Shown: positions 18,867 to 42,151 of the stretch, in pieces
Layout of the letters: every line of letters starts with the position of its first letter
Numbering within the stretch: the stretch's first letter is position 1
Source: Elusimicrobiaceae bacterium
Lineage (GTDB): Bacteria; Elusimicrobiota; Elusimicrobia; Elusimicrobiales; Elusimicrobiaceae
Direction: 5' to 3'
NCBI GenBank assembly: GCA_017528825.1
Contig: JAFXOI010000017.1
Span: 1 to 42,151 of the forward strand
Length of the DNA stretch: 42,151 nt
Notes under the pieces: model-generated
The model's database searches: none
What the model saw: only the letters and a program-made list of their open reading frames with translations
What the model was told of the DNA's origin: nothing
Program-made: the position numbers and the translations under genes

Positions 18867-19128
18867 ACGATTCTCCTTTTGTTTCTGTTTTTGGAGAATG
18901 CACACAAAAAAACGGCTGTTACAGCGGACTCCTGACACGGTATCCAACTATAACAGCCGTAGTCTGCCGCGCCCGAAGGCGTGGCAAACACTCGGCACAA
19001 AACAAACGGGTAATTAGTCCGTTTGCCTTGTGCCTTATATCGGCTGTTTTTGGCGTGTCAGGATTGCTGGTGCAAACCCCGTACTCTGCGTACGGTTCCA
19101 AAAACAGATTCAAATTGTATATACTACT
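18867..19128 (-). promoter_or_regulatory. Structured pilin leader L2 (riboswitch-like RNA, unknown class)
   Basis: On the minus strand the elements come in this order. CTGTTTTTGG (19107-19098) is followed by hairpin CCGTAC/GTACGG (19095-19079). Outer stem CCTGACACG/CGTGTCAGG pairs 19062-19054 with 18939-18931. Stem P1 AACAGCCG/CGGCTGTT pairs 19048-19041 with 18959-18952. Inside P1 is a three-way junction: arm P2 GGCACAA/TTGTGCC with CAAACGG/CCGTTTG (19034-18994), joining strand GAGTGTTT, arm P3 GCCACGCC-TTCG-GGCGCGGC (18985-18966), joining strand AGACTA. The P1 3' strand also pairs with a terminator arm. Leader L3 shares every part with compensating changes. The ligand, if any, is unknown. 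Confidence 0.8.
18906..18960 (-). terminator. Attenuator terminator in leader L2
   Basis: ACGGCTGTTA (18960-18951) pairs with TAACAGCCGT (18921-18912), followed by a run of T. The 5' arm is the same strand that closes stem P1, so terminator and P1 are mutually exclusive. Confidence 0.75.
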
Positions 19129-22825: not shown

Positions 22826-23287
22826 TTAATTCATCAGCCAAATACCGGTGTTAAGTAACCACGCAAAACATAGCCACGCCAAATAAGGAATAAGTAACCA
22901 GACTGCGGCGCGTGAAATCGGCCTTGCAGCCCGCATGAGCCACAGGGTCATTGCAATCATCGCCAGTACTAATATCATCGCTCCCATGATGTGATGCAGG
23001 CCGAAAAACAAGGGCGTCCACGCCGCATTAAGCACCAGTTGCGCGATTATGAGCCAGGTGGCTTTTCGCACGGGCGTATTAAACTCCCTGCGCGTGATGT
23101 AAAAGGCCGCTAGGGCCAGCAGTATATACAGTACCGCCCAGACCATGCCAAACAGCCAGTCCGGCGGAGAGAAAAATGGATGGTTTAGACTGTGGTACCA
23201 ATCCATATTTTGGCGTACAATGCGCACACCCATCCACATAGGCACTTGCCACACCAAGATCCATAAGACTAATTTTGCCAGTTGCAT
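22826..23287 (-). CDS. tspO: TspO/MBR family membrane protein
   Basis: The 153-residue protein has five predicted membrane helices and the family signature MDWYHSLNHPFFSPPDWLFGMVW followed by NAAWTPLFFGLHH and a late WLLNTGIW. TspO proteins bind tetrapyrroles and related ligands and influence porphyrin export or breakdown. SD AGGAGG precedes ATG 23287. It is monocistronic. Family is clear; the ligand here is not. Confidence 0.92.
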   Translation of the reverse strand: MQLAKLVLWILVWQVPMWMGVRIVRQNMDWYHSLNHPFFSPPDWLFGMVWAVLYILLALAAFYITRREFNTPVRKATWLIIAQLVLNAAWTPLFFGLHHIMGAMILVLAMIAMTLWLMRAARPISRAAVWLLIPYLAWLCFAWLLNTGIWLMN

Positions 23288-23390
23288 AATTCCTCCTTTT
23301 GTTAAGGTCGTACCAGTATAAAGGAAAACGGATTTTTCTACAAGTGCAAAAAGTAATTAGTTGTTTCTTTTTTGCTCATTTTACCGTCGG

Positions 23391-23442
23391 AAAGAAAAAG
23401 TATTGTAAAAAAAGCTTGACATCGTTTTTTTTTTTGTAGCAT
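23391..23442 (+). promoter_or_regulatory. Pilin promoter with 11-base T tract in the spacer
   Basis: TTGACA (23416-23421) and TAGCAT (23437-23442) are separated by 15 bases, of which 23425-23435 are eleven T. The A-rich block before it (GAAAGAAAAAGTATT...) is shared with the promoter at 38331. Spacer length could change by slipped-strand replication. Confidence 0.6.
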
Positions 23443-23475
23443 TTAAAATAAACGAACCAAAAAAGGAGGTAGTTT

Positions 23476-23955
23476 ATGTTTGTAAAAAATAACAGAGCTT
23501 TTACGCTCATTGAGTTGTTAGTAGTTGTTTTAATCATCGGCATTTTGTCTGCCATTGCTTTGCCGCAATACCAAAAAGCGGTAGAAAAATCTCGCGCCGC
23601 CGAAGCTCTTACCAACATGCGCACTATTGTGAATAATGTGGAAATGGTAATTTTGGAAACAGGAATGAACGATGGGAATATTTATCTGAACACAGACAAT
23701 TGGTCTGTTCAATTGAGCGGTAGCCAATGGAATAATGGATATTATGTGACAAAATATTTCATATATTCCCTAGAGGATGCGTCAGGTATATATGCCTTTC
23801 GTTGTAACGGTGTTTGTACAAGTGCAGAAGATGTTAATAATGTGGACTATGAGTTATGGCAAGATTATCCTTCTCAAAATAATGGGGTCAGTAATATCTC
23901 TTGTACCGGTTACACCGATTTAGGTACTTCCGTTTGTAAGGCTTTAGGCTATTAA
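23476..23955 (+). CDS. Type IV pilin-like protein
   Basis: The 159-residue prepilin starts MFVKNNRA|FTLIELLVVVLIIG, with Ala before the cleavage point, and continues with ALPQYQKAVEKSRAAEALTN. The globular domain has four cysteines (CNGVC, SCTGY, VCKAL), the last pair forming a likely C-terminal disulfide loop. SD AAAGGAGGTAG lies ahead of ATG 23476. The leader is short (about 26 bases) and has no large fold, unlike the minus-strand pilins. Transcription comes from the T-tract promoter. Confidence 0.9.
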   Translation: MFVKNNRAFTLIELLVVVLIIGILSAIALPQYQKAVEKSRAAEALTNMRTIVNNVEMVILETGMNDGNIYLNTDNWSVQLSGSQWNNGYYVTKYFIYSLEDASGIYAFRCNGVCTSAEDVNNVDYELWQDYPSQNNGVSNISCTGYTDLGTSVCKALGY

Positions 23956-23990
23956 TAGCCACTTTTTTCTATCCGTATGCCCTCTAAAAA

Positions 23991-23999
23991 TGCTAAAAT
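23991..23999 (+). promoter_or_regulatory. Extended -10 promoter for the carboxylase / hldE / SPT run
   Basis: TGCTAAAAT lies 29 bases ahead of ATG 24028, and the start should fall near 24006. No good -35 is seen. Confidence 0.5.
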
Positions 24000-24027
24000 A
24001 AGTATATATTTTTGGCAGTGAGGGAAT

Positions 24028-24402
24028 ATGGATACCAAACTGATTACAGACATTACTAATTGGCTTAAAACCACCGATTTAGCAGAATTTTGTTATCATC
24101 ATAATCACAATTGTATTGAAATCAAGACGCGTGAGGCGTTGCCGGCTCCGTTAGAGTGCACTTGCCACTTGACGGCCGTTACAGCGCCGGCTTTGGGCTT
24201 TTATCATGCCGCCGCAAAGGGTAAGAGCTTACCCCTAAAAGAAGGCCAACCCGTTAAACAAGGGGACCGATTGGGCCTAGTGGAAACCGTGGCCAAAAAG
24301 CATGCCATTACCGCTCCGGTGGACGGTACCTTGCGTATTATCTCTGCCGAGGAAGGCAAGCCCGTAGAATACGGCCAGCCCCTATTTTTTATTGAACCGT
24401 AA
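24028..24402 (+). CDS. Biotin-carboxyl-carrier-like protein lacking the normal AMKM lysine motif
   Basis: The 124-residue protein has the short biotinyl domain at residues about 50-124 (VTAPALGFYHAA...VKQGDRLGLVE...ITAPVDGTLRIISAEEGKPVEYGQPLFFIEP), which lines up without gaps with AccB. The biotinylation motif EAMKM is replaced by ETVAKKH, putting Ala where the biotinylated Lys belongs and Lys one place later. It is followed by accC after a five-base gap, as accB is in many bacteria. Either the modification site has shifted, or this subunit no longer carries biotin. Lipoyl or GcvH-type modification does not fit better. Confidence 0.75.
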   Translation: MDTKLITDITNWLKTTDLAEFCYHHNHNCIEIKTREALPAPLECTCHLTAVTAPALGFYHAAAKGKSLPLKEGQPVKQGDRLGLVETVAKKHAITAPVDGTLRIISAEEGKPVEYGQPLFFIEP

Positions 24403-29163: not shown

Positions 29164-29437
29164 ACTATTCTCCTTTTCTGTCTTTGGAAAATAGTGCATA
29201 AAAAACGGCCGTTATTTTTTGAGCCGAAGAAGTGACCCAAAGCATAACAGCCGTGGTCTGCTATTCTCCGAAGAGAATAGCAAACACTCGGCACCACACT
29301 GCTAATGGATCAGATTAGCCGTGTAGTGCCTAAAACGACTGTCTTTGGACTTCTTCGTGCCTTTGGTCTCCCAAAAGCTCTCCGTATTCTACATACGGTT
29401 CCAAAAACAGATTAAATTGTGTACGTCTATTGTACTA
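29164..29437 (-). promoter_or_regulatory. Structured pilin leader L3 (riboswitch-like RNA, same family as L2)
   Basis: The order of parts matches L2. CTGTTTTTGG (29410-29401) is followed by hairpin CCGTAT/ATACGG (29398-29382). Outer stem CGAAGAAGT/ACTTCTTCG pairs 29357-29349 with 29233-29225. P1 GACAGTCG/CGGCTGTT pairs 29343-29336 with 29253-29246. P2 GGCACTACAC/GTGTGGTGCC lies at 29330-29290. Joining strand GAGTGTTT (29289-29282) is identical to that in L2, as is its place. P3 is GCTATTCTC-TTCG-GAGAATAGC (29281-29260), and joining strand AGACCA follows. Every helix differs in sequence from L2 yet still pairs. A terminator competes with P1. Confidence 0.8.
29200..29254 (-). terminator. Attenuator terminator in leader L3
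   Basis: ACGGCTGTTAT (29254-29244) pairs with ATAACGGCCGT (29215-29205), including one G-U, followed by six T. It uses the P1 3' strand, as in L2. Confidence 0.7.
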
Positions 29438-38330: not shown

Positions 38331-38384
38331 GAAGAAAAAGTATTAGTAAAAAAAGCTTGACTCGTTTTTTTTTTTTGCTACGAT
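38331..38384 (+). promoter_or_regulatory. Pilin promoter with 12-base T tract in the spacer
   Basis: TTGACT (38357-38362) and TACGAT (38379-38384) are 16 bases apart, with twelve T at 38365-38376. The preceding A-rich block is nearly identical to that at 23391. The leader to ATG 38471 is about 80 bases and contains AACGCC/GGCGTT arms, with TTTT following. Confidence 0.6.
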
Positions 38385-38470: not shown

Positions 38471-39604
38471 ATGTCAAAGAAAGCCTTTACTTTAATTGAA
38501 TTACTAGTCGTAGTTCTTATTATCGGAGTGTTAAGTGCTATTGCTATTCCAATGTATCAAGGAGCAGTGGACAAGAGTCATTGGAGCACGATGCTCCCGG
38601 GAGCCAAAGCGATAAAAGACGCGGAAGAAGCATTTAAGATGTCCAATGACGGATATACCGGTGAAATGGGAAATCTTGATGTGACTATGGAGAACAACGA
38701 TTTAACATTTAACTTAATTACTCCTAATAATACCTCGGACCCCAATGTAATCAGAGTGACGAATAGCAAACTGCCCAATGTACGCCTAGCCAGTTATTTA
38801 GATGATAATCCCAAATTTGCGGGACAATTACACTGCGAAGCGCTTGCTGGGGACGAGCGCGCAAACCGGCTATGCGGTGGTTTGTTACAAGGGCAAGAGC
38901 TAACGTCAGCTGACGGATATGTGGGATATCTTTTAGACCAAGAGATAGACCAAGGAACTTGTCAAAATGCCAGTCGCTCTTGGAGTACCAGTAAAACAAA
39001 GTGCTATAAAGATACTGCCACGCGTTGTACAGATTTGGGATCAGAGATAGTTACGAGTATGAATGACCAGTGTGGTTATGTTGGAAGTACAGGGGGGAAA
39101 CAGATAGGAGAAGAAGAAATTTGTTTAGGAAATAGCGGATATACTCCTTGTATAAATACTACTATTAATCAGGGAGGAATATGTGAAGCAAGTGGGGGTA
39201 CAAGGGCCTGTTATAGTGCAAAAATTAATTCAGGCGGTATTTGTCATGCTACCAATGATGCACAGACAGGTTGTGAAAGTGTGGTTGTAAATCCTGGTGG
39301 TATTTGTATCGGAGATAGCGTAAATTCTTGCGGTTTATCATGGTATGCTGCCAATACGGGAAAGATTGACGGTGGAATTTGCGTAGGAAATGGAGTTTCT
39401 TCTTGTACGTCGGGGAGTGGGCCTACGTTTATCAATGGGGCTATTTGTTATGCAAATAATTCACACACTTGCGGACACAATTGGTATTCGCCAGATGCTT
39501 CTGTTTTCTATGACGATACTTCTTGTTGTTGTGGTAATTTCTGCGGAAATGCTCCTTCCTGTGCCAGTCGAGGGAAAACCTGTGACCCGCAGTATTTGAA
39601 ATAA
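38471..39604 (+). CDS. Large type IV pilin-like protein with C-terminal cysteine-rich repeats (paralogue of 17751-18866)
   Basis: The 377-residue prepilin starts MSKKA|FTLIELLVVVLI, again with Ala before the cut. Residues up to about 170 match the paralogue closely at protein level (GAVDKSHWSTMLPGAKAIKD, NVRLASYLDxxPxFAGQLHC), while the DNA is diverged. From about residue 213 the tail has six or seven repeats of form N-x-G-G-I-C-(6-9)-C, for instance NQGGICEASGGTRACYSAKI. The repeat sequences differ from those of the paralogue. CAGGAG precedes ATG 38471. It is driven by the T-tract promoter, whereas its paralogue has the structured leader. Confidence 0.88.
   Translation: MSKKAFTLIELLVVVLIIGVLSAIAIPMYQGAVDKSHWSTMLPGAKAIKDAEEAFKMSNDGYTGEMGNLDVTMENNDLTFNLITPNNTSDPNVIRVTNSKLPNVRLASYLDDNPKFAGQLHCEALAGDERANRLCGGLLQGQELTSADGYVGYLLDQEIDQGTCQNASRSWSTSKTKCYKDTATRCTDLGSEIVTSMNDQCGYVGSTGGKQIGEEEICLGNSGYTPCINTTINQGGICEASGGTRACYSAKINSGGICHATNDAQTGCESVVVNPGGICIGDSVNSCGLSWYAANTGKIDGGICVGNGVSSCTSGSGPTFINGAICYANNSHTCGHNWYSPDASVFYDDTSCCCGNFCGNAPSCASRGKTCDPQYLK
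39107..39604 (+). repeat. Protein-level tandem repeats with paired cysteines (pilin tail)
   Basis: Six or seven units of about 18-26 residues each have GGIC or a variant at the start and a second cysteine six to nine residues later. They line up with the tail of the pilin at 17751-18866 in spacing, not in detail. Confidence 0.7.
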
Positions 39605-41869: not shown

Positions 41870-41915
41870 GACAAATAAAAAAGACTTGACAATCGTTTTT
41901 TTTTTTTGATAGCAT
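41870..41915 (+). promoter_or_regulatory. Pilin promoter with 12-base T tract in the spacer
   Basis: TTGACA (41886-41891) and TAGCAT (41910-41915) are 18 bases apart, with twelve T at 41896-41907. The roughly 100-base leader contains GGGGAT-AGT-ATCCCC and GTGT-AAAA-CACG hairpins but no three-way junction. Confidence 0.6.
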
Positions 41916-42025
41916 CTTAAAAGCGGGGATAGTATCCCCTGATGTTTGTTGTGTAAAACACGCATTTTGAGGTTGTTTTATTGAAAAGAATAGAGCTGTA
42001 GAAAAGAATCTAAAAAGGAGAAACT

Positions 42026-42151
42026 ATGAAAAAAGGTTTCACGTTAATTGAATTATTAATAGTTGTGTTAATTATCGGTGTGTTAACTGCAATTGCTTTG
42101 CCGCAGTACCAAACCGCCACCGATAAAAGCCGGTACGCTACTTTGATGCCG
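42026..42151 (+). CDS. Type IV pilin-like protein (partial, right edge)
   Basis: Only the first 42 residues are in the window: [18 protein letters not shown] followed by [18 protein letters not shown]. The prepilin signal and hydrophobic helix are complete and standard, with Gly before the cut. AAAGGAGAAAC precedes ATG 42026. It is driven by the third T-tract promoter. Confidence 0.92.

Follow-up and report, generated by a model that had tools for sequence, protein, structure and literature searches.

Promoters with homopolymer spacers upstream of type IV pilin-type genes in gut Elusimicrobiaceae: candidate slippage-driven contingency promoters

The focal promoter and its window

The window analysed here is the whole of contig C17 (42,151 nucleotides), part of a 1.53-Mb MAG of 41 contigs whose relatives are gut Elusimicrobiaceae, e.g. 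Candidatus Avelusimicrobium. The focal feature is a promoter-like sequence in which a run of T occupies most of the spacer between the -35 and -10 hexamers, lying upstream of a pilin-type gene (Table 1). The encoded protein carries the prepilin cleavage/methylation N-terminus, with both PF07963 and TIGR02532 over cut-off, and thus belongs to the type IV pilin superfamily. The first-pass annotation had described the layout as TTGACA-15-TAGCAT with T11, and direct reading of positions 23416-23442 bears this out. Moreover, the two further pilins for which it had reported T12 tracts and spacers of 16 and 18 were found as described, each promoter being followed by a pilin-type ORF. These three tracts are the only runs of at least nine T in the window, which holds seven pilin-type ORFs, three of them with a tract. 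A simple consensus scan, which allows spacers of 16-18, missed the focal promoter, whose 15-nt spacer falls outside that range. Tract-promoter pilin copies are where several MAG contigs stop (window 41886-42151; G000:C5:1-265; other contig ends), and the assembly probably breaks at these points because the promoter and N-terminus repeats are near-identical.

Table 1. Promoter, pilin and leader RNA features of the window
Feature	Position	Strand	Remarks
Focal -35 hexamer, TTGACA	23416..23421	+	Sequence reading
T11 tract	23425..23435	+	Inside the 15-nt spacer 23422-23436; sequence reading
-10-like hexamer, TAGCAT	23437..23442	+	Sequence reading; putative function
GGAGG	23465-23469		Upstream of ATG 23476 of the focal pilin
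Focal type IV pilin-type protein, 159 aa	23476..23955	+	PF07963 N_methyl, E 1.5e-8
Second promoter, TTGACT-16-TACGAT	38357..38384	+	T12 at 38365-38376; TGn extended -10
Pilin-type ORF, ~377 aa, class A (large)	38471..39604	+	Behind the second promoter
Third promoter, TTGACA-18-TAGCAT	41886..41915	+	T12 at 41896-41907
Pilin ORF start	42026..42151	+	Behind the third promoter; continues past contig end
Leader RNA copy	18901-19048	-	
Leader RNA copy	29193-29343	-	

A T run in an intergenic region might be the tail of the upstream gene's intrinsic terminator. We found this scarcely credible and dropped it: hairpins ahead of the tract are no more stable than those of shuffled sequences (z 0.2-0.8), no terminator was found, and the gene upstream of the focal pilin faces away.

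The focal pilin is flanked by tspO and the biotin-carrier gene bccp (window 23287-24028). Only this genome and one sister species have a pilin in this gap, and no pilin match was found there in ~50 congeners. In the sister species, RUG14242 (L093), the gap contains two pilin-type genes, and the one related to the focal pilin has the promoter TTGAGA-17-TATATT and no tract. We therefore gave up viewing the focal locus as a conserved switch; the same observations indicate that tract promoters come and go by locus and species.

Tract promoters in the genome and among relatives

Genome-scale statements draw on pattern searches and on individually chosen stretches of sequence. Across the whole 1.53-Mb genome, searched on both strands and hence for A as well, all 32 runs of at least ten T lie inside a TTGAC...TA spacer and none was found outside a promoter spacer. 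For thirty-one of them a pilin gene follows 26-240 bp downstream, and the remaining one is at a contig end. A search with the focal pilin identified 109 pilin-type genes; for 34 of these, a tract promoter on the same strand precedes the gene by 26-240 bp. When spacer tracts of at least eight T are considered, 34/35 sites lie at most 500 bp upstream of a same-strand pilin match (binomial P ~1e-58), and the 35th, with no such match, is near a contig end. The tract-in-spacer layout is far from chance. Moreover, a pilin-type gene lies downstream at 34/35 sites, a position which suggests that the tract controls a surface structure.

A different element, a ~150-nt leader RNA present in 44 copies, two of them in the window (Table 1), precedes 39 further pilins of this genome that all lack a tract promoter. 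It is also found before a few non-pilin genes; those named by eye include a predicted lipoprotein, a HAD-like protein and a DNA methyltransferase. The RNA folds into two hairpins closed by AACAGYCG/CGGCTGTT, and the 3' strand of the closing helix P1 can alternatively pair with a downstream AACAGCCGTTTTTT terminator. In an alignment of 10 sequences 93% of cells pair, and both sides have changed in 19/34 pairs, compared with 10 in shuffles and 4-8 when the pairing is slid; the covariation of the two hairpins is strong. No Rfam family matched at gathering score, and matches to the leader occur in 55/60 congeners. It is a candidate for a new riboswitch or antitermination element working through the choice between P1 and the terminator, and would constitute a second control layer for pilins.

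To follow the tract promoters through relatives, the pattern TTGACN{2,5}T9N{1,6}TANNNT was searched in 101 genomes, including 60 congeners and 40 members of the sister family. It is present in 50/60 congeners, with a maximum of 117 per genome (G011), and in 2/40 sister-family genomes, while the reversed pattern used as a control gave 0 matches in all 101. Most tract sites at the congener loci that were fetched are upstream of pilins, with a few before other secreted proteins. Moreover, several congeners have poly-A spacers of ~A9-A14 (14 sites in G004, 10 in G032 and 7 in G015), and wherever the downstream gene was read it was a pilin (L093, L123, L124, L146). We infer that poly-T and poly-A spacers are of separate origin.

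These distributions bear on two further explanations. The first is that a promoter cassette was duplicated as the gene family expanded, leaving the tract as inherited baggage of no role. Copies are indeed near-identical within a genome and different between species, and contigs break at the repeats. However, pure T12 persists at orthologues with flank identities of 74-80%, other congeners have poly-A versions, and such long homopolymers are absent elsewhere in the genome, all of which makes the cassette explanation improbable. The second, in which a regulator binds the tract or a palindrome around the -10, draws on the palindrome GATAAATTTTGC..ATG..GCAAAATTTATC, which in the GATAAATT clade covers the -10 and start codon of nearly all copies, and on hairpin-like dyads that precede the -35 in this genome. 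The palindrome was not found by eye at the window promoters, however, no regulator emerged from the analysis, and T and A tracts are interchangeable. The existence of both versions points to the homopolymer itself mattering, through slippage or rigidity, more than one base-specific binding protein, and we regard a regulator site as very improbable.

Other features of the congener leaders were recorded. In the clade comprising L260-L281 (G046), L243-L255 (G012) and L282-L294 (G053), the -10 is ~6 nt upstream of the ATG, which suggests leaderless pilin mRNAs. Here the palindrome extends across the -10 and first codons, and in L103 it has changed matchingly on both arms. The pilin leaders of L306, L230, L238 and L240 contain repetitive palindromes of the GTCATCCTGAG...CTCAGGATCT type, and in some ORFs such palindromes seem to be translated within the leader peptide, e.g. 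as RHAELVSAS. A search of the CC-licensed literature found no papers on Elusimicrobium pilin promoters.

Spacer length and its change between copies and species

The tract promoters share the consensus cTTGAC(A/T)-(T)CG-T11/12-G(A/C)-TANNNT, many copies having a TGn extended -10. The bases ahead of the tract compensate for its length, such that TCG+T11 and CG+T12 each give a spacer of 16. This spacer is found at 151/223 listed sites from nine species, a count in which about four sites of the own genome ending AGTAT were misread by the script and are 13, 16 or 17 by inspection. In the genus's ordinary intergenic promoters spacer length has a sharp peak at 17 (58 sites; 9 at 16 and 9 at 18), and the tract class is therefore one base off the norm while keeping the same register. 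The optimum of 17 assumed by the first-pass annotation thus applies to the ordinary promoters of the genus but not to the tract promoters, which peak at 16. This difference of one base bears on A-tract geometry in RNA polymerase positioning.

Within the own genome, pilin-type ORFs of the large class (class A), whose -10 is of the GCTACGAT type with TGn, have T12 in 17/20 cases, whereas small pilins with AGTATCAT-type -10s range from T8 to T16 and over spacers 13-20, their flanks being alike. The focal promoter is a member of the small-pilin class, whose spacer spread differs from that of the large-ORF class (Levene p 3e-5, with classes and spacers assigned by hand).

We then compared near-identical copies. 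At one locus aligned between G012 and G035, 1,960 columns contain 29 substitutions and a sole indel event, T10 against T12. In G035 a tandem pair that differs by 1 substitution in 660 bp has tracts of T12 and T10, and one in G046 that differs by 2 substitutions in 275 bp has T12 and T14. Among near-identical pairs, defined by at most 6 differences across 120 bp downstream, 7/29 differ in tract length, although many pairs are not independent. Judged from these alignments, the tract is the quickest-changing feature at several otherwise near-identical copies. Each MAG gives one consensus allele per tract; the length differences were seen between species and between paralogues only, and pattern scans of viral contigs found no strain variants of these promoters. 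At orthologous sites with 74-89% flank identity, in turn, T12 is mostly retained. Both facts hold, and they suggest that the tract slips over evolutionary time while selection draws the spacer to 16. As mutS is present in 61/61 genomes, loss of MutS was dropped as a source of tract instability, and any switching would be expected to be slow.

The favoured length is accounted for equally well by the main rival explanation, a fixed promoter class. In such a class the T or A tract would form a rigid, over-wound spacer that sets the strength or supercoiling response of a pilin regulon, and length changes would be mutations purged by selection, with no adaptive switching. The concentration at spacer 16, the compensation between TCG+T11 and CG+T12, the T12 kept at most diverged orthologues and in 17/20 class A promoters, and the presence of MutS are all consistent with it. 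However, a fixed class leaves unexplained why pure homopolymers stand at surface genes only, with no runs of ten or more T elsewhere, and it sits poorly with the range of small-pilin spacers and with the ordinary promoters at other pilins, such as TTGAGA-17-TATATT at the sister-species orthologue. We consider a fixed class a real possibility, though less likely than slippage-driven switching.

A candidate bank of contingency promoters and its known counterparts

On balance we favour, with modest confidence and from sequence comparison, the reading that these are sigma-70-type promoters with a mostly homopolymeric spacer, which would serve the pilin genes as contingency switches or dimmers driven by slippage. 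Replication slippage would add or remove T's in single cells. The working length would be a spacer of 16 (T12, or T11 plus one further base), spacers of at most 15 or at least 19 would be weak or off, and the cells of a population would come to express different subsets of ~100 pilins. With its spacer of 15, the focal copy as assembled here would be weak or off. The winding of poly(dA).poly(dT) is tighter than that of ordinary DNA, at ~10 bp per turn. Our guess is that an over-wound 16-bp stretch may keep the hexamers in register, hence 16 and not 17.

The phase-variable switch proposed by the first-pass annotation is upheld insofar as the tract lies exactly within the spacer and is confined to pilins and a small number of other surface proteins, near-identical copies and species differ in its length, and T and A versions occur. 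As a simple on/off switch it fares less well. The spacer of 16 is strongly maintained and T12 prevails in diverged orthologues, which would be equally expected of a fixed promoter, and every genome has mutS. Moreover, the TGn extended -10 of many copies should soften spacing effects, making these promoters less spacing-dependent, and the comparison of copies draws on few loci, with 7/29 pairs differing and many of the pairs not independent.

The proposal in its full form is that slippage switches dedicated to pilins, tens to more than 100 T- or A-spacer promoters per genome, let single cells arrive at random combinations of pilins, and that the homopolymer spacer is of multiple origin and kept one base shorter than the ordinary spacer of the genus. 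We advance it tentatively, as a proposal that falls just short of probable. If true, such a bank of switches would explain the use of ~100 pilin genes by one cell. Promoter-spacer phase variation is known at a few loci of well-studied pathogens; the uncultured gut Elusimicrobiota seem to have them throughout a single gene family, in numbers from tens to over 100 per genome.

The closest of the known systems is opc of Neisseria meningitidis, whose poly-C tract is positioned in the spacer between the -35 and -10. Its expression is set by C11 versus C12 (PMC3447861), and in a mutS+ meningococcus the opc tract was unchanged in 89 colonies (PMC3447861). The promoters described here share with opc a homopolymer between the -35 and -10 of a surface-protein gene. 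They differ in that the tract is T or A rather than C, that one family carries it at loci numbering from tens to over 100 per genome, and that their switching is a proposal. In sabA of Helicobacter pylori a promoter T-tract is proposed to act through its length, and repeats placed between the -10 and -35 are stated to influence the docking of sigma (PMC4081817). The likeness is a T-tract of similar length at the promoter of a surface adhesin; however, the sabA tract is beside the -35, outside the spacer, and acts via UP-like elements, whereas here it lies between the -35 and -10 and is itself the spacer. Repeats in or beside the promoter core also vary the expression of fimbriae (hifA/hifB of Haemophilus influenzae) or of a lipoprotein (vlp of Mycoplasma hyorhinis). 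These differ from the present promoters in having TA dinucleotides or poly-A at few loci. Taken together, our best reading is a slippage-prone contingency promoter of the Neisseria opc kind that has spread across one gene family.
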